A stretch of 64,000 nt of DNA, from the NCBI RefSeq assembly GCF_040529045.1, contig NZ_CP131914.1:1410501-1474500 (forward strand), written 5' to 3'. Below the pieces are notes generated by a model. It was not told the origin of the DNA. It made no database searches and was given only the letters and a program-made list of their open reading frames with translations. Numbering within the stretch: the first letter of the stretch is position 1; each line of letters starts with the position of its first letter. The stretch comes from Xanthomonas indica (GTDB lineage Bacteria; Pseudomonadota; Gammaproteobacteria; Xanthomonadales; Xanthomonadaceae). The translations under genes were made by a program, and so were the position numbers. Below, piece by piece: positions 48,264-64,000 of the stretch.

Positions 48264-49415
48264 TCATGGCGCGGCCGCGGCGCGCCGCCGCAGGTGCCGC
48301 AGCAGGCGCTGGCCTTCGCGCTCGCCGTACCAGGTGGCGTGGCCGAGCAGGTAGCGGCGGTAGGCGATCTCGGCGTGCGTGTCCGAACCGGTGATGCCGG
48401 CGAAGTAGTCGATCTCGCTGAGCGCGAAGTCGGCATGCACCAGCGGCAGCAGCGCGGTCAGCAAGCGCAGTTGCGCCGCGTCCAGCGGCAGCAGGGTGGC
48501 GTAGCCGTGCAGCAGCGCATCGAGCTGGTCGAGTTCGGCGACCGCTTCGCCGCCGTCGTCCAGTTGCAGCCACGGGATCAGGTTGCGTTCGATCGCGGTG
48601 GCCAGGTCGAACAGGGCGAAGGTCCGGTCGGCCAGGCCGAAATCGAACGCCGCGCTGACCGTGCTGGTGGCGCCGTGGCCGCGCCACAGCAGGTTGGAGG
48701 CGTGCCAGTCGCCATGCGTCCACAGCGCCGGCGGCGGCGCCTGCAGCAGCGGCCACGCCTGCGCGTGCCAGGGCAGCAGGTGCGCGCGCAGGTCGTCCTG
48801 CCAGTCGTGCCGCTGCAGCCATGTCGCCAGCGCCGGGCGCCGCGCGAGATCCTGCTGCAGCGCCTGCACCGGCTGCGGCTGGGCGAACAGGCGCAGGTTG
48901 GCGACCAGCACGGTGGTGCTGCGCGGGGGCGCGGTGTAGCCGGCGGCGGCGCGATGCAGTGCCGCCAGCGCGCGGCCGGCGGCGGCGGCATGGGTGGTGT
49001 CGGCGAACGGCGTCCACGACACCGCCTCACGGTAGCGGTCCTCGCCGTCGCCGGCGCGCATCACCTCGTAGGTCCAGTGGCCGCGCCGCACCGCGCTGGC
49101 GCCGTCGCGGTCGCGCAGCACCTCCGGCACCGGCACGCCGTGCGCGCGCAGGTGGGCGATGAAGGCGTGTTCCTCGCCCAGCGCGTGCAGGTCGCGCACG
49201 CGGCGGTGGTGGCGCTTGACGAACAGCGTGCCGGCCGCGGTCTCCACCTCCGCCGCCGCGGAGAACGGGCGCGGGCTGTGCCAGCGCAGTGCGCGCAGCT
49301 GGCCGGGCAAGGCGTACTGCTGCAGCAGCGCCTCCACCTCGCCGTCGGACAGCGGCGGCCAGTCGGCAGCCACGGTCTGCAGGCCCATGCCGTGCATCTG
49401 GTGGCGCGCGCTCAT
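48264..49415 (-). CDS. APH-fold small-molecule kinase
   Basis: Cytoplasmic phosphotransferase of the aminoglycoside/choline/thiamine kinase superfamily, 383 residues. The N-lobe has TLFVKRHHRRVRDL, with the ATP-binding Lys. The catalytic loop is H234-G-D236-x4-N241 in THGDWHASNLLW. The metal site lies in AFDFGLADR. It is the first gene of the minus-strand cluster with the TonB receptor, pnuC and gntR, so its substrate is probably the imported compound, trapped by phosphorylation (ThiK, a thiamine kinase, belongs to this superfamily). It might instead phosphorylate another alcohol. The ATG is at 49415; a second ATG 27 bp inside is also possible. Confidence 0.88.
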   Translation of the reverse strand: MSARHQMHGMGLQTVAADWPPLSDGEVEALLQQYALPGQLRALRWHSPRPFSAAAEVETAAGTLFVKRHHRRVRDLHALGEEHAFIAHLRAHGVPVPEVLRDRDGASAVRRGHWTYEVMRAGDGEDRYREAVSWTPFADTTHAAAAGRALAALHRAAAGYTAPPRSTTVLVANLRLFAQPQPVQALQQDLARRPALATWLQRHDWQDDLRAHLLPWHAQAWPLLQAPPPALWTHGDWHASNLLWRGHGATSTVSAAFDFGLADRTFALFDLATAIERNLIPWLQLDDGGEAVAELDQLDALLHGYATLLPLDAAQLRLLTALLPLVHADFALSEIDYFAGITGSDTHAEIAYRRYLLGHATWYGEREGQRLLRHLRRRAAAAP

Positions 49416-49823: not shown

Positions 49824-50669
49824 ATGAGCGAACAGCAGATAGCCGTGGTGGTGGTGACCTACGAGAGCGGCAGCACCATCGATGCCTGTCTGCAGCGGCT
49901 GCGCGCGGCCGCCGAGGTGGCGCAGATCCGGGTGGTCGACAACGCCTCGCGCGACGACACCCTGGCGGTGGTGCAGCGGCATGCGCTGGACGATGCGCGG
50001 GTGCGCTTCATCGCCAATCCCGACAATCCCGGCTTCGCCACCGCCTGCAATCAGGGGGCCGCGGCCAGCGATGCGCCATGGCTGGCCTTCGTCAATCCCG
50101 ACCTGATGGTCGAGCCCGACACCCTGGCGCAGTTGCGCGCACAGGCCGCCGCGCTCGGCGAGGCGCTGCTGGGCGTGGAGCAGGTCGACGAACACGGCCG
50201 CGCCGACGCCGCGGTGCGGCGCCGCGACCCGGACTTCGCGGCGATGCTGCGGCATCCGCTGGCCGGCTCGCGGCTGGCGCTGGCGGCCGACCCGGCGCAG
50301 CCGCTGCAGCCGGTGCCGGCGCTGTCCGGCGCGCTGATGCTGTTGCCGCGCGCGCTGTTTGTGCGCATCGGCGGTTGGGACGCCGGCTATCGGCTGCATG
50401 CCGAAGACCTGGACCTGTGCCGCCGGGTCCGCCAGGCCGGGGCCACGGTGGCGGTGCTGAACACCCTGCGCGTGCTGCATGTACGCGGCGTGTCCAGCCG
50501 CAAGCGGCCGTGGTTCGTCGAGTGGCACAAGCACCGCGGGCTGTGGCGCTACTTCCGCAAGTTCGAGGCGCCCAGCCGGGCGTGGCCGGTGCGGGCGGCG
50601 GTGTGGGCGGTGATCTGGCTGCACGCCTGGGTCACCTTCGCCCGGTTGTGCTGGCGGCGCCCAGGCTGA
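49824..50669 (+). CDS. Family 2 glycosyltransferase
   Basis: A cytoplasmic or membrane-peripheral sugar transferase of 281 residues. The GT-A domain shows AVVVVTYESGSTIDACLQRL, IRVVDNASRDDTLAVVQRH, NPDNPGFATACNQGAAASDA and the metal motif region WLAFVNPDLMVEPD (NPD in DxD position). HAEDLDLCRRVRQAG is the ED motif typical of rhamnosyltransferase-like GT2 enzymes. It ends with a hydrophobic segment (AAVWAVIWLHAWVTFARLC). The ATG is at 49824. It precedes the putative exopolysaccharide genes by 149 bp and may belong with them. Confidence 0.88.
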   Translation: MSEQQIAVVVVTYESGSTIDACLQRLRAAAEVAQIRVVDNASRDDTLAVVQRHALDDARVRFIANPDNPGFATACNQGAAASDAPWLAFVNPDLMVEPDTLAQLRAQAAALGEALLGVEQVDEHGRADAAVRRRDPDFAAMLRHPLAGSRLALAADPAQPLQPVPALSGALMLLPRALFVRIGGWDAGYRLHAEDLDLCRRVRQAGATVAVLNTLRVLHVRGVSSRKRPWFVEWHKHRGLWRYFRKFEAPSRAWPVRAAVWAVIWLHAWVTFARLCWRRPG

Positions 50670-50719
50670 ACGAAATCTGCCGCGTTGCGCGCGCGTGCGG
50701 CATGGCAACATAAATTCGC

Positions 50720-50725
50720 TATATT
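50720..50725 (+). promoter_or_regulatory. Candidate -10 box for the exopolysaccharide module
   Basis: TATATT lies in the only AT-rich patch upstream of the outer-membrane protein gene, about 99 bp before its start. No good -35 was found at proper spacing. Confidence 0.25.
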
Positions 50726-50818
50726 GGGAAGTGCGTCACTTAACAAATGGCGTGTTCCGCCGATCACCCCTGAACCGTGCCCGCTTTCTGGTTCGGGGGC
50801 CCCACCAGGAACTCAACC

Positions 50819-51769
50819 ATGCTTGATCTCGACGGCGTGCGCTCGCGCACCCACGCGCGCGCCTGCGCGTCCGCTGTGCCTATGGCCGCTGCCGGCAGCG
50901 CCACGCCTGCGCGCCGCGCGCGGCTGGCACTGGCCCTGCTCGCGCTGGCGGCCGGCCCCTGCTACGCCAGCGCCTGGGTCGACGAGGCCGGCCACGGGCT
51001 GGTGATCCTCAAGGCCAGCCATACCGACGGCGGCGCGGTGTTCAACAGCCACGGCCAGTCCGGCAACTTCCCCGACGCCGGGCGCAGCCGCCAGGACCAG
51101 CTCAATCTCTACGGCGAATACGCGCTGAGCTCGGACCTGACCCTGGTCGGCAATTTCTATTTCAGCAAGGTCGGCTACCGCAACGACAGCGGCTACGGCG
51201 ACCGCCACAGAAGCGGCTGGTCCGACCAGGAAATCGGCCTGCGCTACCGGCTCGACCCGGATGGCCGCGACGGTCCCTGGCAGGGCGCGTTGCAGGTGCT
51301 GGCGCTGGTGCCCGCCTATGCGCGCCAGCGCGACGGCGCGCGGCCGGCGCTGGGCCAGGGCGACTACGGCGCCGAGTTGCGCTACAGCGTCGGCCGCGGC
51401 TACCGCCTGGGCGAGCACGACGGCTATGTCGACCTGGGCACGGCGGTGCGCCTGCGCGGCGGCGACGCCTCCGACGAGGCGCGGCTGGACGTGTCCAGCG
51501 GCCTGGCGCTGGCGCCGCGCTGGATGCTGATCGGCGAGTTCAACGTGATCCAGAGCCTGGGCAACGGCAAGGGCCCGAACCGGATCTACGCGCCCGGCGA
51601 CAACACGCCGATCCGCGGCAACAACTTCGATTTCAGCAAGCTGCAGGCCTCGGTGCTGTACACGCTGCCCGGCGGCACGCAGCTGCAGCTCGGCTACCAG
51701 CAGCCGGTGGCCGGGCGCAACACCGGCGGCGCGGGCGGCCCGTTCGTGGCCGCCTGGTGGCGGTTCTAG
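50819..51769 (+). CDS. Outer-membrane beta-barrel protein of the exopolysaccharide module
   Basis: A predicted exported barrel of up to 316 residues. A hydrophobic signal segment ARLALALLALAAGPCYASA is preceded by a long leader if ATG 50819 is used; the ATG at 50882 gives a normal-length signal peptide and may be the true start. The mature part is rich in alternating strands (QLNLYGEYALSSDLTLVGNF, EIGLRYRLDPDG, ASVLYTLPGGTQLQLGYQQP) and ends in WWRF, a terminal aromatic typical of outer-membrane proteins. It may form the export pore or an accessory barrel for the polymer made by the next gene, which it overlaps or abuts. Confidence 0.75.
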   Translation: MLDLDGVRSRTHARACASAVPMAAAGSATPARRARLALALLALAAGPCYASAWVDEAGHGLVILKASHTDGGAVFNSHGQSGNFPDAGRSRQDQLNLYGEYALSSDLTLVGNFYFSKVGYRNDSGYGDRHRSGWSDQEIGLRYRLDPDGRDGPWQGALQVLALVPAYARQRDGARPALGQGDYGAELRYSVGRGYRLGEHDGYVDLGTAVRLRGGDASDEARLDVSSGLALAPRWMLIGEFNVIQSLGNGKGPNRIYAPGDNTPIRGNNFDFSKLQASVLYTLPGGTQLQLGYQQPVAGRNTGGAGGPFVAAWWRF

Positions 51770-51771
51770 CC

Positions 51772-53703
51772 GTGTCCGGCGAACACGACAGCGTCGCCGC
51801 CGAGGCGAGCGCCCCGGGCCGGTTCGGGCGGCTGCCGACCGAGGGCGGCCTGCAGGCGCCGATCGGCGAGGCGCTGGTCGCCGCGGGGGTGATCGACCCG
51901 CCGCAACTGCAGAATGCGCTGACCCTGCAGTCGCGCTGGCGCTCGCGACTGGGCGACGTGGTGCTGGCCCAGCGTGGCGTCGCCGCGCTGCGTTTCTACA
52001 CGGTGCTGGCGCAGCATTTCGGGCTGCATTTCGTCAATCTGCTCAAGCAACCGATCGACCCGGCCCTGTTCCAGCCGGAGCGGCTGGCCGACTACGCGCA
52101 GCGCCTGGTGCTGCCGTGGCGCGAGGAGGACGGCCAGCTGGTGCTGGCGGTGGCCGATCCCGGCCCGGAGATCTTCGCCTGGGCGCGCGCCACCTATGGC
52201 GAGCAGGTGCGCTTCGTCGGCACCTCCAAGTTCGACATCGTGTGGAGCCTGCAGCAGCACGCCGACGCGCAGCTCACCCACGACGCGCTGAACCTGCTGG
52301 CCGAACATGCACCGGAGCATTCGGCGCGGCAGGTGATCACCCGTGCGCAGTCCGCCTTCCTGGTGGTGTTGACCGTGGTGCTGGCCGCGGCCCTGGCGCT
52401 GTGGCCGCTGGTCACCCTGATCGCGCTCAACACGCTGATCGCGGTGGCGTTCCTGGCCACCTTCGGGCTGAAGCTGGTGCTGGCCTGGCGCGGTGCGCGG
52501 CGCCGCATCGACATCAAGGTCAGCGACGAGGAAGTGGCCGCGCTCGGCGACGAGGACCTGCCGGTCTACACGGTGCTGGTGCCGATGTACAAGGAACCGG
52601 ACGTGCTGCCGATCCTGGCCAACGCGCTGCGCCGGCTCGACTACCCGACCTCCAAGCTGGACGTGAAGCTGGTGCTGGAGGCCGACGACACCGAGACCAT
52701 CGAGGCGGCCAAGGCGCTGGGCCTGGAGGCGTTCTTCGAGATCATCCGGGTGCCGCCGTCGCAGCCCAAGACCAAGCCCAAGGCCTGCAACTACGCGCTG
52801 CGCTTCGCCCGCGGGCAGATGCTCACCATCTACGACGCCGAGGACAAGCCGGAGCCGGACCAGCTCAAGCGCGTGGTCGCCGCGTTCCGCAAGTCGCCGG
52901 CCGACGTGGCCTGCATCCAGGCGCGGCTGAACTACTACAACGCCGACGAGAACTGGCTCACGCGCATGTTCACGCTGGAATACACGTTGTGGTTCGACTT
53001 CTACCTGCCGGCGCTGGAAACCCTGCGCATCCCGATTCCGCTCGGCGGCACCTCCAACCACTTCCGCCTGGACATCCTGCGCAAGGTCCACGCCTGGGAT
53101 CCGTACAACGTCACCGAGGACGCCGACCTGGGCGTGCGCCTGACCCAGCAGGGCTACCGGGTCAGCGTGGTCAACTCGACCACGTTCGAGGAAGCCAACG
53201 TCAGCATCCCCAACTGGATCCGGCAGCGCTCGCGCTGGCTCAAGGGCTACATGCAGACCTGGCTGGTGCACATGCGCAACCCGGTGCAGTTGTACCGCTC
53301 CACCGGCGTGCGCGGGTTCTGGGGCTTCCAGCTGTTCGTCGGCGGCACCTTCTTCACCGCACTGGCCGCGCCGCTGATGTGGCTGAGCTACGGGCTGTGG
53401 CTGGCGGTGGGCTCGAAATTCTTCGATCCGTTCTTCCCGCCGGCGCTGCTGTACCTGAGCCTGCTCAACCTGCTGCTCGGCAACGGCTTCCTGATCTACA
53501 TGACCCTGGTGGCGGCGTTCAAGCGCGACTACTTCCGCCTGGCGCCCTACGCGCTGACCGTGCCGCTGTACTGGCTGTTGCAGTCCATCGCCGCCTACAA
53601 GGGCCTGTGGCAGCTCATCCGCAACCCGTTCTACTGGGAAAAGACCACCCATGGCATCAGCAAGCACATGGCCGAAGAGCGCCGCGCCGCGCTCGACGAC
53701 TGA
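51772..53703 (+). CDS. Membrane GT2 polysaccharide synthase with N-terminal MshEN domain
   Basis: Likely processive glycosyltransferase of 643 residues. The N-terminal MshEN/GspE-N-like domain (about 20-150) has two half-motifs, IGEALVAAGVIDPPQLQNAL and RLGDVVLAQRGVAALRF. Domains of this family bind c-di-GMP in MshE and NfrB. Two membrane helices follow (SAFLVVLTVVLAAALALWPL and on). The GT2 core has the metal motif D355-A-E-D358 in MLTIYDAEDKPEPD, T448-E-D450, and Q485-RSR-W489, the QxxRW motif of cellulose- and curdlan-type synthases. C-terminal membrane helices complete it. GTG at 51772 is 3 bp after the upstream stop; GTG at 51757 is also possible. The overall plan is like NfrB but with the MshEN domain at the opposite end. 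Confidence 0.9.
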   Translation: MSGEHDSVAAEASAPGRFGRLPTEGGLQAPIGEALVAAGVIDPPQLQNALTLQSRWRSRLGDVVLAQRGVAALRFYTVLAQHFGLHFVNLLKQPIDPALFQPERLADYAQRLVLPWREEDGQLVLAVADPGPEIFAWARATYGEQVRFVGTSKFDIVWSLQQHADAQLTHDALNLLAEHAPEHSARQVITRAQSAFLVVLTVVLAAALALWPLVTLIALNTLIAVAFLATFGLKLVLAWRGARRRIDIKVSDEEVAALGDEDLPVYTVLVPMYKEPDVLPILANALRRLDYPTSKLDVKLVLEADDTETIEAAKALGLEAFFEIIRVPPSQPKTKPKACNYALRFARGQMLTIYDAEDKPEPDQLKRVVAAFRKSPADVACIQARLNYYNADENWLTRMFTLEYTLWFDFYLPALETLRIPIPLGGTSNHFRLDILRKVHAWDPYNVTEDADLGVRLTQQGYRVSVVNSTTFEEANVSIPNWIRQRSRWLKGYMQTWLVHMRNPVQLYRSTGVRGFWGFQLFVGGTFFTALAAPLMWLSYGLWLAVGSKFFDPFFPPALLYLSLLNLLLGNGFLIYMTLVAAFKRDYFRLAPYALTVPLYWLLQSIAAYKGLWQLIRNPFYWEKTTHGISKHMAEERRAALDD

Positions 53704-55165
53704 CGCGCCGCCGCGCGCGCGCGGCACCGCGGTGTTCGTGCTCACCGCGGCGCTGCTGGCGCTGCTGTGCCACCGGTTGCTCGCGCACGGCTACATGAGC
53801 GACGACGCGATGGCGCAGTACGCCAAGCTGCTGCTGTTGCGCGACGCGGCCGGCTTCCGCATCGAGTACCTGGGCTTTCTGTACGCGCAGGCCTCGCTTT
53901 ACCTGGGCGTGCTGATCGGCGGCCTGCCGGGCCTGTCCACGCCGCTGCTGCCGTACCTGGTCGACGTGCTGGCGGGGGCGACGCTGGTGACCCTGCTGTG
54001 GCGCGACATTGCCGCCGGGCTGGGGCGCGGTTGGGCGTGGGCGCTGAGCGCGGGCCTGGTGTTGCAGCCGTTCTTCCTGTGGCCGACGTTGTCCGGCAAC
54101 AACCAGGGCCTGGGCCTGCTGGTGTTCTACGTGGCCGCGCGCGCACTGCGCCACTTCCGCGGCGATCCGGAAGCCTTCGCCTACCTGCGCCTGGCGGCGA
54201 GCCTGTGCCTGCTGTTCTTCGTTGACGAGCGCGCCTGCTTCCTGGCGGTGGCGCTGGCACCGTGGCTGTTCCTGATCGCGCCGCCGCGGCTGATGCGGCA
54301 GGCGCCGCTGGCGTTCTACCTGGTGTGCTACCTGCCGTTCTTGTTCGCGGTGGCGGCGTGGATGTACCTCAACTACATGTTCTTCGGCGACCCGCTGCTG
54401 TTCGTGCGCGACGCCAACTCGGCCTTCCGCGGCATCTATGCGCAGGCGGCGCTGCAGCCGTGGCTGCAGCAGGCCGCGGCGCAGCCGTGGTGGCCGCCGC
54501 TGTGGCTGTCGCTGGCCGGGCTGGTCAGCGCGCCGCTGTTGCTGTTGCTGCGCCACACCCGCACCGGCGACACCTGGCGCAGCGTGCTGGCCGCCACCTT
54601 GACCGTGATCGGCGCCGGCACGCTGGCCACCTGGGCGCGTTTCACTGCGCAGCCGCTGGACTTCCTGGCCCTGCTGCTGGTGCCGGTGGCGCTGGTGCTG
54701 GGCGACCTGCGCCGCGACCTGCGCTGGCTGGGCCTGGTGCTGCTGCTGGCCGGCGCGGTGTCCAGCGGCTGGGTGATCGCCCGCACCGCCACCTCCACCA
54801 CCCGCGACTGGATCGCCGCGCTGCAGGCGCCGGCGCCGCCACGGCATGCCGATGCCGCACGGCTGGGCGCGTGGCTGGCCGAGGCGCGGCTGCCGACCCT
54901 GCTCGACGACCGCGCCAGCTACCCGGTGATCGTCGCCCGCGGCGACGCCAGGCAACTGATCCTGCCGTTCGACCCGCGCTTCAAGCAGGCGCTGGTCGAT
55001 CCGCGGCAGATGCCGGCGCAGGTGGTGGTGAGCGACCCGGCCAGCCAGGCTGGCACCCTGGACAGCCTCAACCGGCGCTTCCCGCAGCTATGGCAACAGG
55101 GCCTGCCGGGCTACAGTCTGGTCTACCACCAGGGCATCTACCGGGTATGGCGCCGATCGCCGTGA
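53651..55165 (+). CDS. Polytopic membrane protein, GT-C-like or polymer-transfer role
   Basis: A protein of 504 residues with about ten membrane helices (GTAVFVLTAALLALLCHRLL, AFYLVCYLPFLFAVAAWMYL, LDFLALLLVPVALVLGDLRR) and a soluble C-terminal domain of about 110 residues (LLDDRASYPVIVARGDARQL). An early HGYMSDDAMAQYAK segment, with acidic residues after the first helix, is reminiscent of GT-C enzymes of the PMT/ArnT type, but I do not recognise the family with certainty. It overlaps the MshEN-GT2 gene by 53 bp and the next gene by 19 bp, so it is part of one translational unit. Confidence 0.75.
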   Translation: MASASTWPKSAAPRSTTDAPPRARGTAVFVLTAALLALLCHRLLAHGYMSDDAMAQYAKLLLLRDAAGFRIEYLGFLYAQASLYLGVLIGGLPGLSTPLLPYLVDVLAGATLVTLLWRDIAAGLGRGWAWALSAGLVLQPFFLWPTLSGNNQGLGLLVFYVAARALRHFRGDPEAFAYLRLAASLCLLFFVDERACFLAVALAPWLFLIAPPRLMRQAPLAFYLVCYLPFLFAVAAWMYLNYMFFGDPLLFVRDANSAFRGIYAQAALQPWLQQAAAQPWWPPLWLSLAGLVSAPLLLLLRHTRTGDTWRSVLAATLTVIGAGTLATWARFTAQPLDFLALLLVPVALVLGDLRRDLRWLGLVLLLAGAVSSGWVIARTATSTTRDWIAALQAPAPPRHADAARLGAWLAEARLPTLLDDRASYPVIVARGDARQLILPFDPRFKQALVDPRQMPAQVVVSDPASQAGTLDSLNRRFPQLWQQGLPGYSLVYHQGIYRVWRRSP

Positions 55166-56121
55166 GACTGCTGGCCGCACTGCTGTTGGCGCTGAGCGCC
55201 GGCGGCTGCAGTGCGGCGCCGGCGCCGCCGTGGTTGGGCGCCAACGTCAAGGTCTCGCCGCAGGCGCCATGGGGCAGCGCGGCGGCGCAGCAGTCGCTGC
55301 GGCAACTGGCCGATGCCGGCGCCTCGCGCGCGCTGCTGGTCGCCTTCGTCTGGCAGGCCGCGCCGCAGTCCTCGGCACCGGTGCTGGGCAGCGACAGCAG
55401 CCCGGCGCTGATCCGCGCCGGACTGCGGCAGATGCGCGCCGCGGGCCTGCAGCCGGTGCTGAAAGTGCATCTGTGGATTCCCGGGCACTGGGCCGGCGAG
55501 GCCGCGCCGGCCGATCGCGATGCCTGGTTCGCCGCCTACCAGCGCGCGCTGCTGCAACTGGCGCAGGTCGCCGCCGAGGAACGCGCCAGCGCGCTGATCG
55601 TCGGCACCGAACTGCGCCAGTTGCAGGATGCGCCGCAATGGCCGGCCCTGCTGGCGGCGGTGCGCCAGGTCTATCGCGGCCCGATCGGCTACGTCGCCGA
55701 TGGCCTGGAGCAGGCCGAGCGCTTCGGCTACTGGGACCGCTTCGATTTCGTCGGCACCAGTCTGTACCCGGCGCTTTCCGCCACGCCGGCGCAGCGGCGC
55801 GCGCAGATGCATGCGGCGGCGGCGCGCGTGCAGGCGCTGGGCGAGCGCAGCGGCCGCCCGGTGTGGGTGGCCGAGCTGGGCTTGCGCTCGGCGCACGGCA
55901 GCCTGGCGGCGCCATGGGAAAGCCCGGAGCAGCGCACCGCCGACGTCGACACCGCGTTGCAGGCGCAGGTGTTGCGCGAGTGGCGCGACGTGCTCGACGC
56001 GCAGCCGCGCATCGCCGGCATCGCGCTGTGGTGCTGGTACACCGACCCGGATGCCGGCGGCGCGCAGGATAGCGATTTCACCGTGCAGCACAAGCCGGCG
56101 CAGGCGGTGCTGAAGCGCTGA
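55147..56121 (+). CDS. GH113-like TIM-barrel lipoprotein (putative exopolysaccharide hydrolase)
   Basis: A predicted lipoprotein of 324 residues; the signal ends in LALSAGGC. The TIM-barrel region resembles glycoside hydrolase family 113 (beta-mannanase type): GANVKVSP at the barrel entry, LIVGTEL with E155, [31 protein letters not shown] with E243, and [11 protein letters not shown] near the end. E155 and E243 are the candidate acid/base and nucleophile. It may trim or release polymer in the periplasm, as BcsZ does for cellulose. It overlaps the upstream membrane-protein gene and is the last gene of the module. Confidence 0.8.
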
Positions 56122-56194: not shown

Positions 56195-57379
56195 ATGATC
56201 ATCGATTCGTTGCTGGACACCGACCTCTACAAGTTCACCATGATGCAGGCGGTGCTGCATCAGCATCCCGGCGCGCAGGTGGAGTACCGCTTCAAGTGCC
56301 GCACCCCGGGCATCGACCTGGCGCAGTACCTGCCGCAGATCTCGGCGGAGATCGACGCGCTGTGTGCGCTGCGCTTCCGCGAGGAGGAGCTGGACTACCT
56401 GCGTGCGATGCGCTTCATCAAGCCGGACTTCGTCGATTTCCTGGCGCTGTTCCACCTGGACCGCAAGTATCTGCAGGTGCAGGCCTCGACCAGCGTGCCC
56501 GGCGAGATCGAACTGCACATCCGCGGGCCGTGGCTGCACACCATCCTGTTCGAGGTGCCGCTGCTGGCGATCGTCAACGAGGTGTGGTTCCGCAATGCCG
56601 GTGGCGCCGAGCATGCCGAAGGCCTGCGCCGCCTGCAGGCCAAGATCGCGCTGCTGCGCGACACCCCGGGCTACGACGGCTGCGCCATCGCCGACTACGG
56701 CACCCGCCGCCGCTATTCGCGGGCCTGGCACGGCGAGCTGCTGCCGGTGCTGCAGCAGACTTTGGGCAAGCAGTTCGTCGGCACCAGCAACGTGCACTTC
56801 GCCCGCCGCTACGGGCTGACCCCGCTGGGCACGATGGCCCACGAGTACCTGCAGGCGTTCCAGGCGCTGGGGCCGCGGCTGCGCGATTCGCAGGCGGCGG
56901 CGCTGGAATCGTGGGCGCGCGAGTACCGCGGCGACCTCGGCATCGCGCTGTCGGACGTGGTCGGCCTGGACGCGTTCCTGCGCGATTTCGATCTGTATTT
57001 CTGCAAGTTGTTCGACGGCATGCGCCACGATTCCGGCGATCCGTTCGACTGGGGCGAGCGGATCCTGGCGCACCTGCAGCGGCATCGGGTGGATCCGCGC
57101 AGCAAGATCCTGGTGTTCAGCGACGGCCTGGACATCGACAAGGTGATGCGGCTGTACGCGCATTTCCGCGATCGCTGCATGCTGGCGTTCGGCGTCGGCA
57201 CCCACCTGACCAACGACCTGGGCCTGGTGCCGCTGCAGATCGTGATCAAGATGGTCCGCTGCAATGGCCAGCCGGTGGCCAAGCTCAGCGACTCGCCGGG
57301 CAAGACCCTGTGCGACGACCCGGCCTATCTGGCGTACCTGCGCCAGGTGTTCGAGGTGCCTGCCGAGGACCCGCGCTGA
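56195..57379 (+). CDS. pncB: Nicotinate phosphoribosyltransferase
   Basis: First step of the Preiss-Handler route of NAD salvage (nicotinate plus PRPP to nicotinate mononucleotide), 394 residues. PncB features: [20 protein letters not shown] at the N-terminus, [39 protein letters not shown] with the conserved His, [16 protein letters not shown], and [14 protein letters not shown]. The ATG is at 56195, 73 bp after the GH113-like gene. No NrtR-type box was found. The PnuC-type permease gene is 11 kb away; whether the two share a pathway is open. Confidence 0.95.
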
Positions 57380-57489: not shown

Positions 57490-57597
57490 TCGCCATAAAG
57501 TGAGAACTGTGTCGCAATAGTGACGGTCGACAACGGCCGGCCAGGCGCCGCAGCCGCTACGCCGTTGTCGTTCCGTCCCTGCCCAGAGACTTCCTCG

Positions 57598-58056
57598 ATG
57601 AGCGCTCACGCGTTGCAGACCCATTACCGCACCCAGGCCTGTTCGCGGCAGTGGCGTGGCTTTCTGCGCGCGTTGGCCGAGGAGTTCGCCGCCGAACTCG
57701 GGGCCGAGGACCTGGCGCTGCTGCTGGCGCGCATCGGCCGCCGCTTCGCCGCCGAACATCCGGTCGGCGCCTGCGCCACCCTGCAGGACCTGGAGGAAGC
57801 GGCCAACCGCCTCTGGGACCAGTTGGAATGGGGCTATGCGCGGTTCGAGGAACATGCCGACCGCGTCGAACTGCTGCACGCCGGTTCGCCGCTGCACATC
57901 GGCCTGGCCGGGCAGGCCACCGGCGCCGACGGCTTCCTGGAAGGGGTGTATCAGGCATGGTTCGTGCAGGTAGGCATGTCGGCCGGGCTGGGCGTGCGTG
58001 CGTTGTCGTCCGGGAACGAAGACCTGCGGCGCTTCGTGCTGGCCAGGATCGGCTGA
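57598..58056 (+). CDS. bcsD: Cellulose synthase subunit BcsD
   Basis: Periplasmic subunit that in Komagataeibacter organises cellulose chains into crystalline ribbons; 152 residues, close to the family length of about 156. Visible features: LQTHYRTQACSRQWRGFLRA at the N-terminus, LEEAANRLWDQLEWGYARFE, and HADRVELLHAGSPLHIGLAG. No signal peptide, as usual for BcsD. The ATG at 57598 was chosen because the in-frame extension upstream to 57520 has no homology. It is the first gene of the cellulose operon, which differs from the Acetobacter order where D is last. Confidence 0.88.
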   Translation: MSAHALQTHYRTQACSRQWRGFLRALAEEFAAELGAEDLALLLARIGRRFAAEHPVGACATLQDLEEAANRLWDQLEWGYARFEEHADRVELLHAGSPLHIGLAGQATGADGFLEGVYQAWFVQVGMSAGLGVRALSSGNEDLRRFVLARIG

Positions 58057-58103
58057 GCGCGGCGGCGGCGACCCATTATTTTCAGATCGTCATGAGGGGA
58101 GTC

Positions 58104-58505
58104 ATGTCCAAGAAGTCCAAGCAGACGGGTGCCGAAACCGGCGATGACGTCTCCAGCCTGTTCGCCAAGCTCGGCAGCAGCGGCGCCACCGCCTACCAGG
58201 ATTTCTCCGCCGACCGGCTCAGCGCCGTGGAGCCGGCCGCGGTGGCGCCGCCAGCGCCTGCCGTCCCGGCACCGGTGCTGTCGGTGGTGCGCGCCGCGGT
58301 CGAGCCCAGGCCGGGCGCCCCGTTGCCGGTTGCGCCGCTGCCGCTGGCGCCTGTCGCCCCGGCTGCGCCGGCGCCGGCCGCGGTCGTGGCGGGAACTGGC
58401 AGCGGCACGCCGTTGCAGCAGCTGTTCCAGCGCCTGCTCGAGGTCGGCCGCGAGGCCGCCGTGCCGGCGCCGGGCGGTCCGCTCAAGCGCTTCTTGAATC
58501 GTTGA
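58104..58505 (+). CDS. Proline-rich cellulose biosynthesis accessory protein (BcsP-like)
   Basis: Small accessory protein of 133 residues. The N-terminal segment DDVSSLFAKLGSSGATAYQD resembles the short conserved head seen in BcsP/BcsO/BcsR-type accessory proteins. An Ala/Pro-rich linker (about 50-100) and a C-terminal helix with TPLQQLFQRLLEVG and LKRFLNR follow. No membrane helix or signal. The ATG at 58104 has a good GAGGGGAG site. Position between bcsD and bcsA supports a cellulose role; the exact family name is uncertain. Confidence 0.65.
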   Translation: MSKKSKQTGAETGDDVSSLFAKLGSSGATAYQDFSADRLSAVEPAAVAPPAPAVPAPVLSVVRAAVEPRPGAPLPVAPLPLAPVAPAAPAPAAVVAGTGSGTPLQQLFQRLLEVGREAAVPAPGGPLKRFLNR

Positions 58506-58599
58506 TGCCGCGCGGCGCCTCGGGCGCCGCGCTGTTTGCCGTCGCCGCGTGGTGGGGAAGACCGCGCGGCGACCTCCTCCCCCTTGTTAGGAACCGCCG

Positions 58600-60750
58600 A
58601 TGAGCGCTGCCTCCGCGTCGCATGCCGCGCGCCCGCTGCATGTCCTGGCCAACTGGTCGCTGTGGCTGCTGGGCGCCGTGTTGCTGGTCTTCGTCGTCGC
58701 CATCCCCATGGATGTGCCGCAGCAACTGGTGTTCTCGCTGGTGGTGTTCGTCGCGGCCATGCTGCTGCGGCGCAGTGGCAGCCGCCTGGCGATCCTGGTG
58801 ATGATGGCGCTGTCGCTGGCGGTGTCCTCGCGCTACATCTGGTGGCGCCTGACCCAGACCGTGGGCATGAGCAGCCCGATCGACCTGAGCCTGGGCCTGG
58901 GCCTGCTGCTGGCCGAACTGTACGCATTCGTGATCCTGGCCCTGGGCTATTTCCAGGTGCTGTGGCCGCTGAACCGGCGGCCGCTGCCGCTGCCGGCCGA
59001 CCAGCGGCAATGGCCCAGCGTCGACCTGTTCATCCCCACCTACAACGAACCGTTGTCGGTGGTGCGCTCGACCATCCTCGCCGCCAGCGTGATGGACTGG
59101 CCGGCCGACAAGCTCAACATCTACCTGCTCGACGACGGCCGCCGCGAGGAGTTTCGCGCGTTCTGCGCGCAGGCCGGCATCCACTACATCACCCGCACCA
59201 ACAACTTCCACGCCAAGGCCGGCAACATCAATGCCGCGCTGAAGAAGTCCAGCGGCGAGTACGTGGCGATCTTCGACTGCGACCACATCCCCACGCGCTC
59301 GTTCCTGCAGGTGGCGATGGGCTGGTTCCTGCGCGACGCCAAGCTGGCGGTAGTGCAGATGCCGCACTACTTCTTCTCGGCCGATCCGTTCGAGCGCAAC
59401 CTCGGCAACCACGGCAAGGTGCCCAACGAGGGCGAGCTGTTCTACGGCCTGCTGCAGGACGGCAACGACCAGTGGGACGCCACCTTCTTCTGCGGCTCGT
59501 GCACGGTGATCAAGCGCAAGCCGCTGGAGGAAGTGGGCGGGGTGGCGGTGGAGACCGTCACCGAGGACGCGCACACCGCGCTGAAGCTGCACCGTCGCGG
59601 TTACCGCAGCGCCTACATCGCGGTGCCGCAGGCCGCCGGCCTGGCGACCGAGAGCCTGTCCGGCCACGTCGCCCAGCGCATCCGCTGGGCGCGCGGCATG
59701 GCGCAGATCGCGCGGCTGGACAATCCGCTGCTGGGCAAGGGCCTGCGCCTGTCGCAGCGGCTGTGCTACGCCAACGCGATGCTGCATTTCTTCTATGGGC
59801 TGCCGCGGATCGTCTACCTCACCGCGCCGCTGGCCTTCCTGTTCTTCGGCGCGCACGTGATCCACGCCTCGGCGCTGATGATCCTGGCCTACGCGCTGCC
59901 GCACATCCTGCAGGCCAACCTGACCAACCTGCGCACCCAGGGCAAGTTCCGCCACCTGCTGTGGAACGAGGTCTACGAGACCACCCTGGCCTGGTACATC
60001 CTGCGCCCGACGCTGGTGGCGCTGTTCAATCCCAAGCTCGGCAAGTTCAACGTCACCCCCAAGGGCGGCCTGGTGCCGCGCAGCTACTTCGACGGGCAGA
60101 TCGCCAAGCCCTACCTGTTCCTGCTGGTGCTCAACCTGGCCGGCGTGGTCGCGGGCGTGATGCGCCTGCTCAGCGTGCAGGCCGGCGGCGAGGCGCAGAC
60201 CATCTGGTTCAACCTGGCGTGGACCGCCTACAACGTGCTGCTGCTCGGCGCCACCATCGCCACCGCCAGCGAGATGCGCCAGGTGCGCCGTTCGCACCGC
60301 GTGCCGCTGGACATCCCGGCCACCCTGCACCTGGCCGATGGCCGCGAACTGGCCTGTCGCACCGTCAACTTCTCCACCGGCGGCATGGCCCTGCGCCTGC
60401 TCGCGCCGGTGCCGGTGGAGCCGGACCTGCCGGTGGAGATCGCGCTGCCGCAGCGCGGCAGTTCCAAGCGCCTGCCGGCGATGGTGCGCCACGACCGCGA
60501 CGGCGAAATCAGCATCCAGTTCCGGCCGATGTCGATCGAGCAGGAGCGCTGGCTGGTGGCCTGCACCTTCGCCCGCGCCGACATCTGGGTGTCGCAGTGG
60601 GGCCGCCACGACCGCGATCGCTTCTGGGTGTCGCTGGGGCGCGTGTTCGCGGCCAGCATGCGCGGCTTCCGGCGTCTCGGTCAGCACATCGCCAGCAGCG
60701 CGCGCAGCGGCTGGCGCGGCCGCGCCACCGGCGAGGAGGCGGCGCCGTGA
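58600..60750 (+). CDS. bcsA: Cellulose synthase catalytic subunit with PilZ domain
   Basis: Makes beta-1,4-glucan from UDP-glucose and moves it across the inner membrane; 716 residues. N-terminal membrane helices are followed by the GT2 core with D142 region (FIPTYNEP), D178-D179-G (LLDDG), D226-C-D228 (IFDCDHIPTR), FFCGS, T321-E-D323 and Q359-RI-R362-W363. C-terminal helices are followed by a PilZ domain with R563-RSH-R567 and N590-x-S592-x-x-G595, both c-di-GMP contacts intact, so allosteric activation is expected. It lies 94 bp after the BcsP-like gene and is followed directly by bcsB. Confidence 0.96.
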   Translation: MSAASASHAARPLHVLANWSLWLLGAVLLVFVVAIPMDVPQQLVFSLVVFVAAMLLRRSGSRLAILVMMALSLAVSSRYIWWRLTQTVGMSSPIDLSLGLGLLLAELYAFVILALGYFQVLWPLNRRPLPLPADQRQWPSVDLFIPTYNEPLSVVRSTILAASVMDWPADKLNIYLLDDGRREEFRAFCAQAGIHYITRTNNFHAKAGNINAALKKSSGEYVAIFDCDHIPTRSFLQVAMGWFLRDAKLAVVQMPHYFFSADPFERNLGNHGKVPNEGELFYGLLQDGNDQWDATFFCGSCTVIKRKPLEEVGGVAVETVTEDAHTALKLHRRGYRSAYIAVPQAAGLATESLSGHVAQRIRWARGMAQIARLDNPLLGKGLRLSQRLCYANAMLHFFYGLPRIVYLTAPLAFLFFGAHVIHASALMILAYALPHILQANLTNLRTQGKFRHLLWNEVYETTLAWYILRPTLVALFNPKLGKFNVTPKGGLVPRSYFDGQIAKPYLFLLVLNLAGVVAGVMRLLSVQAGGEAQTIWFNLAWTAYNVLLLGATIATASEMRQVRRSHRVPLDIPATLHLADGRELACRTVNFSTGGMALRLLAPVPVEPDLPVEIALPQRGSSKRLPAMVRHDRDGEISIQFRPMSIEQERWLVACTFARADIWVSQWGRHDRDRFWVSLGRVFAASMRGFRRLGQHIASSARSGWRGRATGEEAAP

Positions 60751-60809
60751 GTCGTCGTCCCGCGGTGGTGCGTTGCTCCCTCTCTTTCCCTTCTTTCCGG
60801 TTGCCGTCG

Positions 60810-63098
60810 ATGCGTTTCCCTGCCCTGGCTGCGTGCTGTCTCACGGTCCTGTCCGGCCTCGCCCTGGCCCAGGAGCCGACCCTTCCCGCCACCGCACCGG
60901 CGCCGGCCGCCGCCGCGACCGCCACGCCGCTGCCGTCGCCGGCCGAACGCGAGCGCTCGGCCACGCTCAAGCAACTCGGCGTGGACTACGAGATGACCCT
61001 GCGCGGCATCCAGGGCAGCGCCGGCATTCCCTTCAGCACCCGCACCGACGAAGTGGTGCAGGCGGCGAACCTGCACCTGGTGTACAGCTATTCGCCGGCG
61101 CTGCTGCCGGACCTGTCGCACCTGAAGGTCAGCGTCAACGGCGTCACCGTGGCGACCCTGCCGGTCAGCCGCGAGAACGCCGGCAAGCTGCAGCAGAGCG
61201 ACGTGCCGATCGATCCGCGCCTGATCAGCGACTACAACCGGCTCAACCTGCAGCTGATCGGTCACTACACCCGCGACTGCGAGGACCCGGACCACACCAG
61301 CCTGTGGGCCAACATCGATCCGTCCACGCGGCTGTCGCTGACCGCCACCCCGCTGGTGCTGCGCAACGACCTGGCGCTGCTGCCGGTGCCGTTCTACGAC
61401 AAGCGCGACACGCGCCGCCTGGAACTGCCGTTCGTGTTCCCGCAGCGCCCGGACCTGCCCACGCTGCGCAGCGCTGGCATCGTCGCCTCCTGGTTCGGCG
61501 CGCAGGCCGGCTACCGCGGCGCGTCGTTCGGCGTGGCCATCGGCGACGTGCCGGCCACCGGCAATGCGGTGCTGTTCGCCACCGCTGCGACCCTGCCGGC
61601 GGAACTGGCCGCGACCCAGGCCGGCTTGAGCGAGATATCCGGTCCGACCCTGGCGATGGTCGCCAACCCGCGCGATGCCACCGGCAAGCTGCTGCTGGTG
61701 CTGGGCCGCGACGACGCCGACCTGCAGCAGGCCGCCACCGCGCTGAGCCTGGGTACGCCGTTCAACGGCCCGGTGGCGCGCATCGGCGAGCTCAAGCAGG
61801 CGCAGCCGCGCAAGCCCTACGACGCGCCCAACTGGATCTCCAGCGACAGGCCCGTGCGCTTCGGCGACCTGGTCGCGCAGACCGCGCAACTGAATGTCAG
61901 CGGCTACCACCCCGACCTGATCCGGGTCGGCCTGCAACTGCCGCCGGATCTGTTCGTGTGGCAGCGCGACGGCATCCCGATCAACCTGCGCTACCGCTAC
62001 ACGGTGCCGGAGACGCAGAACAAGTCCGCGCTCAACGTCAGCATCAACGAGGCCTTCGTGACCACGCTGCCGCTGACCGGTCACGCCTACGCCGAGTCGT
62101 TGCCGCTGCGCTGGTGGCACGAGCTCTCGCCCAAGGGCGCGATGCCGGTGGAGCAGAAGCTGCTGCTGCCGACCGGGCCGTTCTCGGCCAACAGCCAGCT
62201 GCGCTTCCACTTCTTCTTCGACCGTCCGCAGGCGGAGGCGTGCAAGAACACCTTCCCCGACGTGTCCGGCGCGATCGATGCGGATTCCAGCGTGGACCTG
62301 CGCTCGTTCCATCACTACATGGCGATGCCGAACCTGGCCGCGTTCGGCAATGCCGGCTTCCCGTTCACGCGCCTGGCCGACCTGTCCGAATCCACCGTGG
62401 TGGTGCCGGACGAGATCGGCGATCAGGACATGGCCAACCTGCTGACTCTGCTCGGCCGGCTCGGCGCGTCCACCGGCTATCCGGCGCTGCGGGTGACCCT
62501 GATCCACGCCGCCGAGGTCGACAAGCACGCCGACAGCGACCTGCTGGTGTTCGGCAGCCTGCGCTCGCAGCCGCTGTTCCAGCGCTGGAGCGCGGCGCTG
62601 CCGATCGGCGACGGCGCCAGCGGACAGCGGTTTTCGATGAGCGACTGGGTGCTGGACAAGCTGCCCGGTTTCCTGTCGTTCGATCCGCGCCGCACCGACC
62701 TGCCGACCACCGCCGAGGTCGCGGTGAAGCCGGCGCCCGGCGACGTGGTGCTGATGGGCTTCCAGTCGCCGCTGAAGGCCGGGCGCAGCGTGGTCGCGTT
62801 GCTGGCCGAGGACCCGGCCAGCGTCGAGGACTTCTTCGACGCCTGGTTCGAACCGGCCACGCTGAAGGATTTCCAGGGCAGCGTGGTGCTGCTGCAGAAG
62901 GGCAAGGTGCGCAGCCTGGCCGGCAACCAGACCTACTACGTCGGCCACCTGCCGCTGCCGACTTGGGCGCGCTGGTACTTCTCGCAGCATCCGCTGCTGC
63001 TCGGCCTGGCGGTGGTGGCGCTGAGCGTGCTGCTGGCACTGGCCGCGCGCGTGGTGCTGCGCCGGCATTCGGCGGCGCGGCTGCAGGAAGGGCAGTGA
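60810..63098 (+). CDS. bcsB: Cellulose synthase regulatory subunit BcsB
   Basis: Periplasmic partner of BcsA anchored by one C-terminal helix; 762 residues from ATG 60810, which starts a clean signal peptide (MRFPALAACCLTVLSGLALA). A GTG at 60747 overlapping the bcsA stop is an alternative start. BcsB features: carbohydrate-binding-like domains with LKQLGVDYEMTLRGIQGSAG, LNLQLIGHYTRDCEDPDHTS (conserved CEDP), FDRPQAEACKNTFPDVSGAI, DSSVDLRSFHHYMAMPNLAA, and the terminal helix LLLGLAVVALSVLLALAARV. The stop overlaps the bcsZ start. Confidence 0.94.
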   Translation: MRFPALAACCLTVLSGLALAQEPTLPATAPAPAAAATATPLPSPAERERSATLKQLGVDYEMTLRGIQGSAGIPFSTRTDEVVQAANLHLVYSYSPALLPDLSHLKVSVNGVTVATLPVSRENAGKLQQSDVPIDPRLISDYNRLNLQLIGHYTRDCEDPDHTSLWANIDPSTRLSLTATPLVLRNDLALLPVPFYDKRDTRRLELPFVFPQRPDLPTLRSAGIVASWFGAQAGYRGASFGVAIGDVPATGNAVLFATAATLPAELAATQAGLSEISGPTLAMVANPRDATGKLLLVLGRDDADLQQAATALSLGTPFNGPVARIGELKQAQPRKPYDAPNWISSDRPVRFGDLVAQTAQLNVSGYHPDLIRVGLQLPPDLFVWQRDGIPINLRYRYTVPETQNKSALNVSINEAFVTTLPLTGHAYAESLPLRWWHELSPKGAMPVEQKLLLPTGPFSANSQLRFHFFFDRPQAEACKNTFPDVSGAIDADSSVDLRSFHHYMAMPNLAAFGNAGFPFTRLADLSESTVVVPDEIGDQDMANLLTLLGRLGASTGYPALRVTLIHAAEVDKHADSDLLVFGSLRSQPLFQRWSAALPIGDGASGQRFSMSDWVLDKLPGFLSFDPRRTDLPTTAEVAVKPAPGDVVLMGFQSPLKAGRSVVALLAEDPASVEDFFDAWFEPATLKDFQGSVVLLQKGKVRSLAGNQTYYVGHLPLPTWARWYFSQHPLLLGLAVVALSVLLALAARVVLRRHSAARLQEGQ

Positions 63099-64000
63099 AC
63101 GCACACATCGGCCAACGCCGGCGCCTGCTCGGCGGCCTGCTCGCCGCCGGTGCGGCCACGCTGCTGCCGCCGGCGCGCGCCGCGCTCGCCGCAGCGCCGG
63201 CCTGCGCGCCGTGGCGCGAGTGGACCGCGTTCGTCGGCAAGCACCTCGATGCCGGCGGGCGGGTGATCGATTTCCAGCACGCCGACCAGCGCAGCACCTC
63301 CGAAGGCCAGTCCTACGCGCTGTTCTTCGCGCTGGTGGCCAACGACCAGGTGCTGTTCGAGCGCGTGCTCGGCTGGACCCGGCACAACCTGTGCGGTGGC
63401 CGCCCGCAGCAAGTGCTGCCGGCGTGGCTGTGGGGCCGCGCCAGCGACGGCAGTTGGCGCGTGCTCGACGGCAACACCGCCAGCGATGCCGACCTGTGGA
63501 TCGCCTACGTGCTGCTCGAGGCCGGGCGCCTGTGGCAGCGGCCCGGCTACACCCAGGCCGGCCTGCAGACGCTGGCGCTGGTGCGGCGCACCGAGCTTGC
63601 CGAGTTGCCCGGGTTCGGCAGCATGGTCTTGCCGGCGGCCAAGGGCTTCGTCAAGCCGCAGCGCTGGACGCTCAACCCCAGCTACCTGCCGATCCAGTTG
63701 CTGCGGCGCTTCGCCGCGGTCGATCCGAAGGGGCCATGGGCCGGCCTGGCCACGCGCAGCGCGCGCCTGCTGCGCGACAGCGCGCCGGTCGGCTTCGCCC
63801 CGGACTGGATCGCCTGGAACGGCCGCGAGTTCGGCGTCGATCCGGACAAGGGGGCGCTGGGCAGCTACGACGCAATCCGCGTGTACCTGTGGGCCGGCAT
63901 GCTCGACGCGGCCGAGCCGCTGCGCAAGGCACTGCTCGACGATCTGTCCGGCCCGCTGCAGCAACTGCGTGCGCAGGGCCGCCTCGACGAGAAGATCGAC
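63095..64000 (+). CDS. bcsZ: Periplasmic endo-beta-1,4-glucanase (GH8), partial
   Basis: Cellulase that trims the nascent glucan; 302 codons are visible and the gene runs off the right edge (family about 370-400). The GTG start overlaps the bcsB stop. The N-terminus RRRLLGGLLAAGAATLLPPA looks like a twin-arginine signal. GH8 features: STSEGQSYALFFALVAND with the acid E70, and DGNTASDADLWIAYVLLEAG (residues about 126-145), then RWTLNPSYLPIQLLRRFA and LGSYDAIRVYLWAGM. Confidence 0.93.
   Translation, partial: MNAHIGQRRRLLGGLLAAGAATLLPPARAALAAAPACAPWREWTAFVGKHLDAGGRVIDFQHADQRSTSEGQSYALFFALVANDQVLFERVLGWTRHNLCGGRPQQVLPAWLWGRASDGSWRVLDGNTASDADLWIAYVLLEAGRLWQRPGYTQAGLQTLALVRRTELAELPGFGSMVLPAAKGFVKPQRWTLNPSYLPIQLLRRFAAVDPKGPWAGLATRSARLLRDSAPVGFAPDWIAWNGREFGVDPDKGALGSYDAIRVYLWAGMLDAAEPLRKALLDDLSGPLQQLRAQGRLDEKID

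Follow-up and report, generated by a model that had tools for sequence, protein, structure and literature searches.

The founding paper on the xag operon of Xanthomonas is said to be Tao 2010. According to published work, xag is required for biofilm formation in X. campestris. In X. oryzae pv. oryzicola, xagABCD is described as an operon for an extracellular polysaccharide (EPS) that is upregulated when RpfG, a phosphodiesterase of cyclic di-GMP (c-di-GMP), is lost and that is required for the raised biofilm of the rpfG mutant; the same account gives X. oryzae pv. oryzae as being without xag (PMC3609779). Clp binds a 211-nucleotide (nt) promoter stretch of X. campestris xagA and represses the gene, c-di-GMP relieves the repression, and the polysaccharide is called uncharacterized (PMC3528676); a 2019 review likewise gives the Xag polymer as unknown, and its nature is still to be established according to PMC8042644. 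Genes in the order bcsB-xagB-xagC-xagD were also named in stalk-forming iron oxidizers by Kato in 2015 (PMC4643136). We analyzed a window of 64,000 nt from Xanthomonas indica, whose genome is a single contig of 4.8 Mb (window at C1:1410501-1474500), in which a sequence-only reading had proposed an unnamed five-gene exopolysaccharide module. Genes 2 to 5 of that set (50819-56121) do have a name (PMC3609779, PMC3528676, PMC4643136): judged by gene content and order, they are the xagABCD operon, already known but chemically uncharacterized. The operon is fuller here than in a sister clade of the genus, with a probable direct c-di-GMP switch and a probable second glycosyltransferase. Its features are as follows.

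50819-51769, + strand: xagA, small outer-membrane beta-barrel, COG4313-like, the proposed export channel (profile match to PDB 4rl8)
51757-53703, + strand: xagB, MshEN domain plus membrane GT2 processive synthase (Pfam MshEN 2.2e-11, GT2 1.4e-25)
51859-52017, + strand: MshEN_N c-di-GMP motif pair, putative, XagB residues 35-58 and 64-87 with a 5-residue spacer (NF053729)
52567-53244, + strand: XagB GT2 catalytic domain, residues 271-496 (PF13641, 9.6e-20)
53651-55165, + strand: xagC, membrane glycosyltransferase of predicted GT-C fold, full-length form
53786-53944, + strand: first outer loop of XagC, residues 46-98 (loop hidden Markov model [HMM]), missing in the sister Xanthomonas clade
54848-55162, + strand: C-terminal domain of XagC, presumably periplasmic, residues 400-504 (domain HMM), missing in the sister clade
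55162-56121, + strand: xagD, GH113 hydrolase with a signal sequence and lipobox-like AGGC, E150 and E238 (PF22612, 1.9e-31)

For the xagABCD of this Xanthomonas, which lies outside the clade of the better-studied species, we consider it fairly likely that the four products form one c-di-GMP-gated pathway of polymerization, decoration, trimming and export. XagB, whose domains are evident in its sequence, would be an inner-membrane processive GT2 polymerase under allosteric control by c-di-GMP bound at its MshEN domain. XagC, a periplasm-facing GT-C protein by its predicted fold, would probably use a lipid-phosphate donor to attach a sugar to the chain as it emerges. Family membership suggests that the GH113 hydrolase XagD, placed outside the inner membrane, may trim or clear the polymer and that XagA, a small COG4313-type barrel, may export it. 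Given the published repression of xag by Clp and its relief by c-di-GMP, together with a sensor on XagB, c-di-GMP would therefore have two points of action, the expression of xag and the synthase itself. Some findings weigh against this account. In X. oryzae pv. oryzicola, single deletion of xagA or xagB in the wild type did not lower biofilm or total EPS; the deletions lowered only biofilm, and only in the rpfG mutant (PMC3609779). A scan of the 149 nt upstream of xagA in the window found at best a match with two mismatches to TGTGA-N6-TCACA, with a chance of about 6% by our own estimate, which is too weak to claim as a Clp site.

All five genes of the earlier set lie where they had been placed, on the + strand, with Pfam matches for the GT2, XagB and XagD, a family-profile match for XagA and a helical membrane model for XagC. 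With the start codons used (XagA, ATG 50819; XagB, GTG 51757; XagC, ATG 53651; XagD, GTG 55162) the four xag genes overlap successively by 13, 53 and 4 nt, in line with the tight packing first described; a later XagB start is possible and would leave the sensor intact. The order of barrel, MshEN/GT2 synthase, membrane protein and GH113-like gene matches the published xagABCD in order and number, and gene order, synthase and hydrolase are shared with the operons of X. campestris, X. oryzae pv. oryzicola and X. citri. The view of the locus as a synthase-dependent exopolysaccharide module is borne out by the synthase, outer-membrane barrel and GH113 hydrolase.

The same gene set, which the sequence-only reading had proposed to seek across genomes, recurs widely. 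We used the best 80 of 538 XagB relatives as loci (28 from Xanthomonas and 52 others). XagB aligns at 52 to 100% identity in these 80 loci and XagC adjoins it in nearly all of them, so the gene set does not reflect chance. The closest named relative of XagB among these best 80 is that of Xanthomonas sp. F10 (99%). Searches with phmmer found XagD in 65 and XagA in 52 of the 80. The sister clade comprises 25 of the loci (L008-L030, L034 and L052), and the window's clade is represented by L005-L007 and by 10 further same-genus regions (L100-L109); X. campestris, X. citri and X. oryzae themselves lie outside the set of named loci. The 52 other loci belong to Pseudomonas, Halopseudomonas, Pseudoxanthomonas, Acetobacteraceae, Azospirillaceae, Roseobacter-type, Mariprofundus, Gallionella-type and other bacteria, with two (L065 and L066) being single contigs of metagenome-assembled genomes (MAGs) from other phyla. 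XagB occurs in 15 of 20 genomes that share the genus code and in 7 of 369 sampled across the class (own genome counted), and XagC in 9 of 119 sampled from the family. Conservation below is given for row sets of 81 (XagB), 30 (XagA), 43 (XagC, 39 of them full-length) and 66 (XagD) sequences; genes on L121 and L122 were taken from plain open reading frames (ORFs) and Pfam.

The acidic motifs and the QxxRW motif typical of processive GT2 enzymes are conserved throughout XagB: D360, E362, D363, E454, D455, Q490, R493 and W494 are invariant in the 81 rows, and T453 is present in 79. Among solved structures, the N-terminus of XagB is related to PilF, MshE and PilB domains and the part that follows to GT2 enzymes. 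The Pfam MshEN match covers residues 88-174, which correspond to the C-terminal subdomain; the ligand site precedes this match. It consists of two motifs of 24 residues each (35-58 and 64-87), set apart by 5 residues exactly as described in PMC5013675. The NCBI c-di-GMP motif model NF053729 (cut-off 38 bits) scores 39.1 bits on the whole protein and 41.6 on the fragment, and it reaches E<=1e-3 in 79 of 81 rows, a measure that differs from passing the cut-off. On the same model the controls from the window's own genome score 16.3 bits (XpsE) and 14.2 bits (PilB, away from the N-terminus), with TfpB not listed. Among the MshE contact positions (XagB numbering in brackets), glycine is kept at G11 (G37) in 80 of the 81 rows and at G40 (G66) in 72, R38 (R64) in 64, D41 in 72 and Q32 (Q58) in 67, and hydrophobic contacts are kept in kind in the window at I36, L51 and L55 of the first motif and L65, F80 and L84 of the second.

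Several departures speak against direct sensing. The cut-off is exceeded by just 1.1 bits, R9 of MshE corresponds to P35 in the window, with arginine in only 11 of 81 rows, L54 is F80 (F in 58 rows), Q61 is H87 (H in 50 rows), and a glycine of MshE in motif 2 is replaced by R73. In Vibrio cholerae MshE, R9A lowered binding by 83% and abolished function, and Q32A lowered binding by 61% (PMC4624772). Such changes, the missing R9 above all, together with the score of 39.1 against a cut-off of 38, would fit a rival in which the MshEN domain of XagB is a structural relic, as in XpsE of Xanthomonas, a published case of lost c-di-GMP binding (PMC5013675), and the effect of c-di-GMP runs solely via Clp at the level of transcription. 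We judge this rather unlikely, given that XagB keeps both glycines, R64 and Q58, that its remaining contacts stay hydrophobic, and that XpsE itself scores far lower on the motif model. The same study reports effects of no more than about fivefold for changes at Arg9, Asp12 and Gln32, and finds that hydrophobic contacts dominate MshEN binding, which may tolerate imperfect conservation (PMC5013675). Because the glycines and hydrophobic contacts are kept and the motif model passes its cut-off, XagB likely senses c-di-GMP directly through its N-terminal MshEN domain despite the missing R9. The sensor claimed earlier for the synthase is therefore probable, with most contact positions kept, but not intact, as some have changed. 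MshEN fusions with glycosyltransferases have been mentioned in general (PMC5013675), and operons such as xagABC have been said to "likely encode a c-di-GMP binding protein" with a post-translational role (PMC4624772). We found no open-access paper joining xag, Xanthomonas and MshEN, and none with XagB binding data; a 2019 inventory of c-di-GMP components in X. oryzae pv. oryzae names the XpsE domain and xag nowhere, in an organism given as lacking xag (PMC3609779).

XagC had been described as a polytopic membrane protein, which the predicted structure, a helical membrane protein, upholds; the fold can now be assigned as well. The model shares the fold of ArnT over 398 residues (VIA-align; model residues 20-504; 11% identity), and on the strength of this predicted fold XagC is probably a GT-C-fold glycosyltransferase. 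Pfam and NCBIfam gave no match for the window's XagC, the XagC profile found no PDB sequence at E<=1, and 1 of 43 rows has a weak PMT_2 match (0.0015). The first outer loop of the window's XagC carries D51, at the presumed GT-C catalytic position, and D52. Differing in this from ArnT and other GT-C glycosyltransferases, XagC does not have the loop acid universally, with D or E at position 51 in only 27 of 39 full-length rows, which is a point against a catalytic role; D471 of the C-terminal domain is present in all 39. An XagC HMM match (E<=1e-3) lies beside XagB in 79 of 80 loci, with none in L066; the profile was built from 39 of the 43 rows, 38 of them from loci then counted, the matches in L051, L060 and L077 are weak (25 to 36 bits; the first two at contig ends), and two matches sit in ORFs starting inside the span of xagB.

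XagC is full-length in the window's clade, including the loop and the C-terminal domain, whereas the 25 sister-clade loci have a short form. Over the whole locus at E<=1, neither the loop HMM nor the C-terminal-domain HMM matched in any of the 25, while the window, L005-L007 and the ten regions L100-L109, none of them among the training rows, score 53 to 56 bits with the loop HMM and 120 to 123 with the other. Outside Xanthomonas, both parts are missing in L035 (Pseudoxanthomonas winnipegensis), L077 (a Roseomonas MAG) and L066; L051, L060 and L065 have no C-terminal domain on contigs that are short there. In a wider draw, XagC matched in 33 of 35 sister-clade genomes at 282 to 319 bits and in five genomes of the window's genus at 585 to 592 bits. 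Five of the 33 sister-clade alignments reach profile position 486-502 because that profile contains short-form rows; at four of the five loci the domain HMM had found no match. On an XagB tree of 65 rows (61 of the 81 plus 4 of the 10 same-genus regions), XagC shortening amounts to two changes without L077 and three with it. The shortened XagC has a median omega of 0.25 (45 pairs from 10 of the 25 loci; XagB, 0.09) and so is not a dead gene but is under purifying selection; the values for the window's clade (XagC, 0.37; XagB, 0.34) come from three rows, too few to lean on. From their place in the sister clade, X. campestris, X. citri and X. oryzae would themselves carry the short XagC.

That the short form is retained under selection after losing the loop and C-terminal domain, and that XagC is a steadier neighbor of XagB than XagA or XagD, could also mean that XagC, despite its GT-C fold, is a non-catalytic membrane partner of the synthase, serving as a channel, scaffold or assembly factor, and that the polymer is an undecorated homopolymer. 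This is a less probable, though serious, alternative; full-length XagC keeps the outer loop, mostly with an acid at D51, and the invariant D471, as would be expected if chemistry takes place there. If XagC is instead the decorating glycosyltransferase, a broader picture may be offered tentatively: a two-enzyme synthase made of a cytoplasmic GT2 polymerase switched on directly by c-di-GMP and a periplasm-facing GT-C enzyme decorating the emerging chain, of which the sister clade would have lost the decorating half, giving two chemical forms of the polymer, with the stalk polysaccharide of iron oxidizers, made with a BcsB-like subunit, also under direct c-di-GMP control.

XagD aligns over its full length with GH113 beta-1,4-mannanases (4cd6, 2.6e-12; 3civ, 2.7e-12), has a signal sequence ending in a cysteine, and is the only GH113 match in the genome. 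Its E150 and E238, which we take to be the GH113 catalytic pair, are present in all 66 rows. Mannose in the Xag polymer is a guess, to which the GH113 family and a published connection between the mannanase ManA and biofilm dispersal lend some plausibility. XagA has 316 amino acids and, on its own, no match in Pfam or NCBIfam. The profile of 30 rows matches 4rl8 (Pput2725) at 5.2e-6, the only match at E<=1, and PF13557 was found in 3 of the rows. Among the families listed, no TPR or NfrA_C match occurs in any of the 30, and we reject a TPR-type export pore in favor of a small barrel. Pput2725 is the closest solved relative of FapF, the exporter of a matrix amyloid (PMC5557850), which provides a precedent for export; the likeness to FapF runs only via Pput2725 and not through direct comparison, and whereas Pput2725 and FapF carry hydrophobic compounds or amyloid, XagA is proposed to carry polysaccharide. 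Pput2725 was judged unlikely to pass hydrophilic molecules (PMC4493636), which speaks against a simple open pore for XagA. In X. phaseoli (L014, 7691-8882), xagA lies in two ORFs and pncB is split too; a broken xagA has been published for X. fuscans.

Most relatives of XagB outside Xanthomonas come with a further gene. One of about 640 to 830 codons precedes xagA or xagB in nearly all of these loci; 9 of 10 tested pass the Pfam BcsB cut-off, as does that of L084, while the upstream gene of L071 has no Pfam BcsB match and fits a profile built including it, and L066 has a peptidase in this position. Profile A3 finds the BcsB-like gene in 48 of the 52 loci (29 in the profile, 19 outside it), the misses being L035, L046 (where the contig starts), L066 and L077. 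No BcsB-like gene precedes xagA in any of the 28 Xanthomonas loci, although the contig of L030 is too short to tell, and the only BcsB match in the window's genome is that of the adjacent cellulose operon. Such a distribution could suggest that the synthase borrows BcsB from that operon in place of its relatives' subunit. We consider this very improbable and reject it on the ground that nine sister-clade genomes (G388-G396) and G402, the genome of L035, keep xag and have no match to Pfam BcsB or to a profile of the xag-type BcsB, some of them being drafts. Because these genomes have no BcsB match, XagB in them works without BcsB or is not working. Another BcsB-like gene is held by G003, G004 and G015 (L007). 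In G004 (L122, 7282-15718) an nfr-type locus, with a UDP-GlcNAc 2-epimerase, a BcsB-like gene just below the Pfam cut-off, a GT2 and an NfrA_C protein, lies just beyond pncB, where the window has cellulose genes; G003 has cellulose too, and in G003 and G015 only the BcsB-like gene was checked.

The clusters of iron oxidizers (bcsB-xagBCD, sfz and sfb) share XagB, XagC and XagD in the same order and the MshEN motif region (PMC4643136, PMC8250860), but have a BcsB-like subunit and no XagA, where the window has XagA and no BcsB of its own. Ferriphaselus R-1 (L053), with bcsB-xagB-xagC-xagD, is 60%, 31% and 39% identical to the window in XagB, XagC and XagD, and XagB of Mariprofundus PV-1 (L062) is 57% identical. 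The N-terminus of the iron-oxidizer synthase has been called EpsE-like, with a role in translocation weighed and found questionable (PMC8250860, 2021). The stalk-cluster synthases of L062 and L053 carry the same motif-pair region as XagB, read here as a putative c-di-GMP sensor.

Two better-known systems were considered and set aside. Escherichia coli NfrB, with NfrA and YbcH (NGR), resembles XagB in its MshEN-GT2 fusion, outer-membrane partner and c-di-GMP control, and the likeness with reversed domain order noted earlier holds, in that NfrB has GT2 first and MshEN last while XagB has MshEN first and GT2 last; NfrA is a TPR barrel, and the available part of that account names no GT-C or GH113 protein (PMC8669469). 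We rejected an NGR system since the domain order is reversed and XagA differs from NfrA. Cellulose synthesis by BcsA, BcsB, BcsZ and BcsC shares a processive GT2, c-di-GMP control and a periplasmic hydrolase, and the BcsB-like subunit found with most XagB relatives. Cellulose systems, however, have a PilZ sensor, a GH8 hydrolase and the TPR-barrel BcsC, where the window's xag genes have MshEN, GH113 and a small barrel; with no PilZ match in XagB and no BcsB in the xag operon, this identity was rejected as well.

Around the operon, the window contains the following.

49824-50669, + strand: GT2 glycosyltransferase (PF00535, 1.7e-19), a conserved xag neighbor in Xanthomonas whose membership is doubtful
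50670-50818, + strand: gap of 149 nt between the GT2 gene and xagA, the probable xagA promoter region, with a weak Clp-like site
56195-57379, + strand: pncB, nicotinate phosphoribosyltransferase (PF04095, 1.1e-71), a conserved neighbor outside the system
57520-64000, + strand: neighboring cellulose operon with bcsD, bcsA and bcsB, then bcsZ and bcsC past the window end

The first GT2 gene, which we take to be COG1216-like, was counted earlier as part of one five-gene set; the four genes xagABCD stand, and this one is better seen as a conserved neighbor. A single five-gene system, in which this GT2 performs a step for the Xag polymer, is doubtful. In its favor, the gene stands upstream of xagA in all Xanthomonas loci except L030, whose contig is short (27 of 28), and beside it in 10 of 10 further same-genus regions; in Pseudoxanthomonas composti (L036) it directly adjoins the BcsB-like gene located before xagA. 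That locus is the only one of the 52 outside Xanthomonas where it was found, and in the window it is separated from xagA by the 149-nt gap, where a relative has its published promoter, with no translational coupling. A divergent gene of an APH-type phosphotransferase family (48264-49415, - strand) adjoins the GT2 gene. On the other side, pncB lies 3' of xag in 28 of 28 Xanthomonas loci and separates xagD from the full cellulose operon reported nearby (BcsD at 57520, BcsA-PilZ at 58600, BcsB at 60810), from which the xag set is distinct; BcsZ (GH8) and BcsC were identified in L123, which begins within the window and extends beyond its end. Elsewhere, a receiver-GGDEF protein in Aurantimonas (L071, 13514-14458) and a response regulator and histidine kinase in Salipiger (L079, 13279-16198) are encoded downstream of xagC and hint at local control, and in a Thiobacillus MAG (L037, 14177-16129) a CotH-kinase family protein lies downstream of xagBC at a locus with no XagD match.

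The Xag polymer is a Xanthomonas biofilm polysaccharide besides xanthan, and the GT-C fold gives XagC a testable role in making it. A direct sensor on XagB, if real, would answer the statement made for xagABC in PMC4624772 and would mean that c-di-GMP governs a Clp-controlled pathway at a second point; reading the N-terminal domain in this way also suggests a different interpretation of the part called EpsE-like in the stalk clusters of iron oxidizers. The short XagC of the sister clade is a warning that results obtained there may not carry over, and, if the two-enzyme picture is right, the genetics done in the clade of the studied species would describe a reduced machine.

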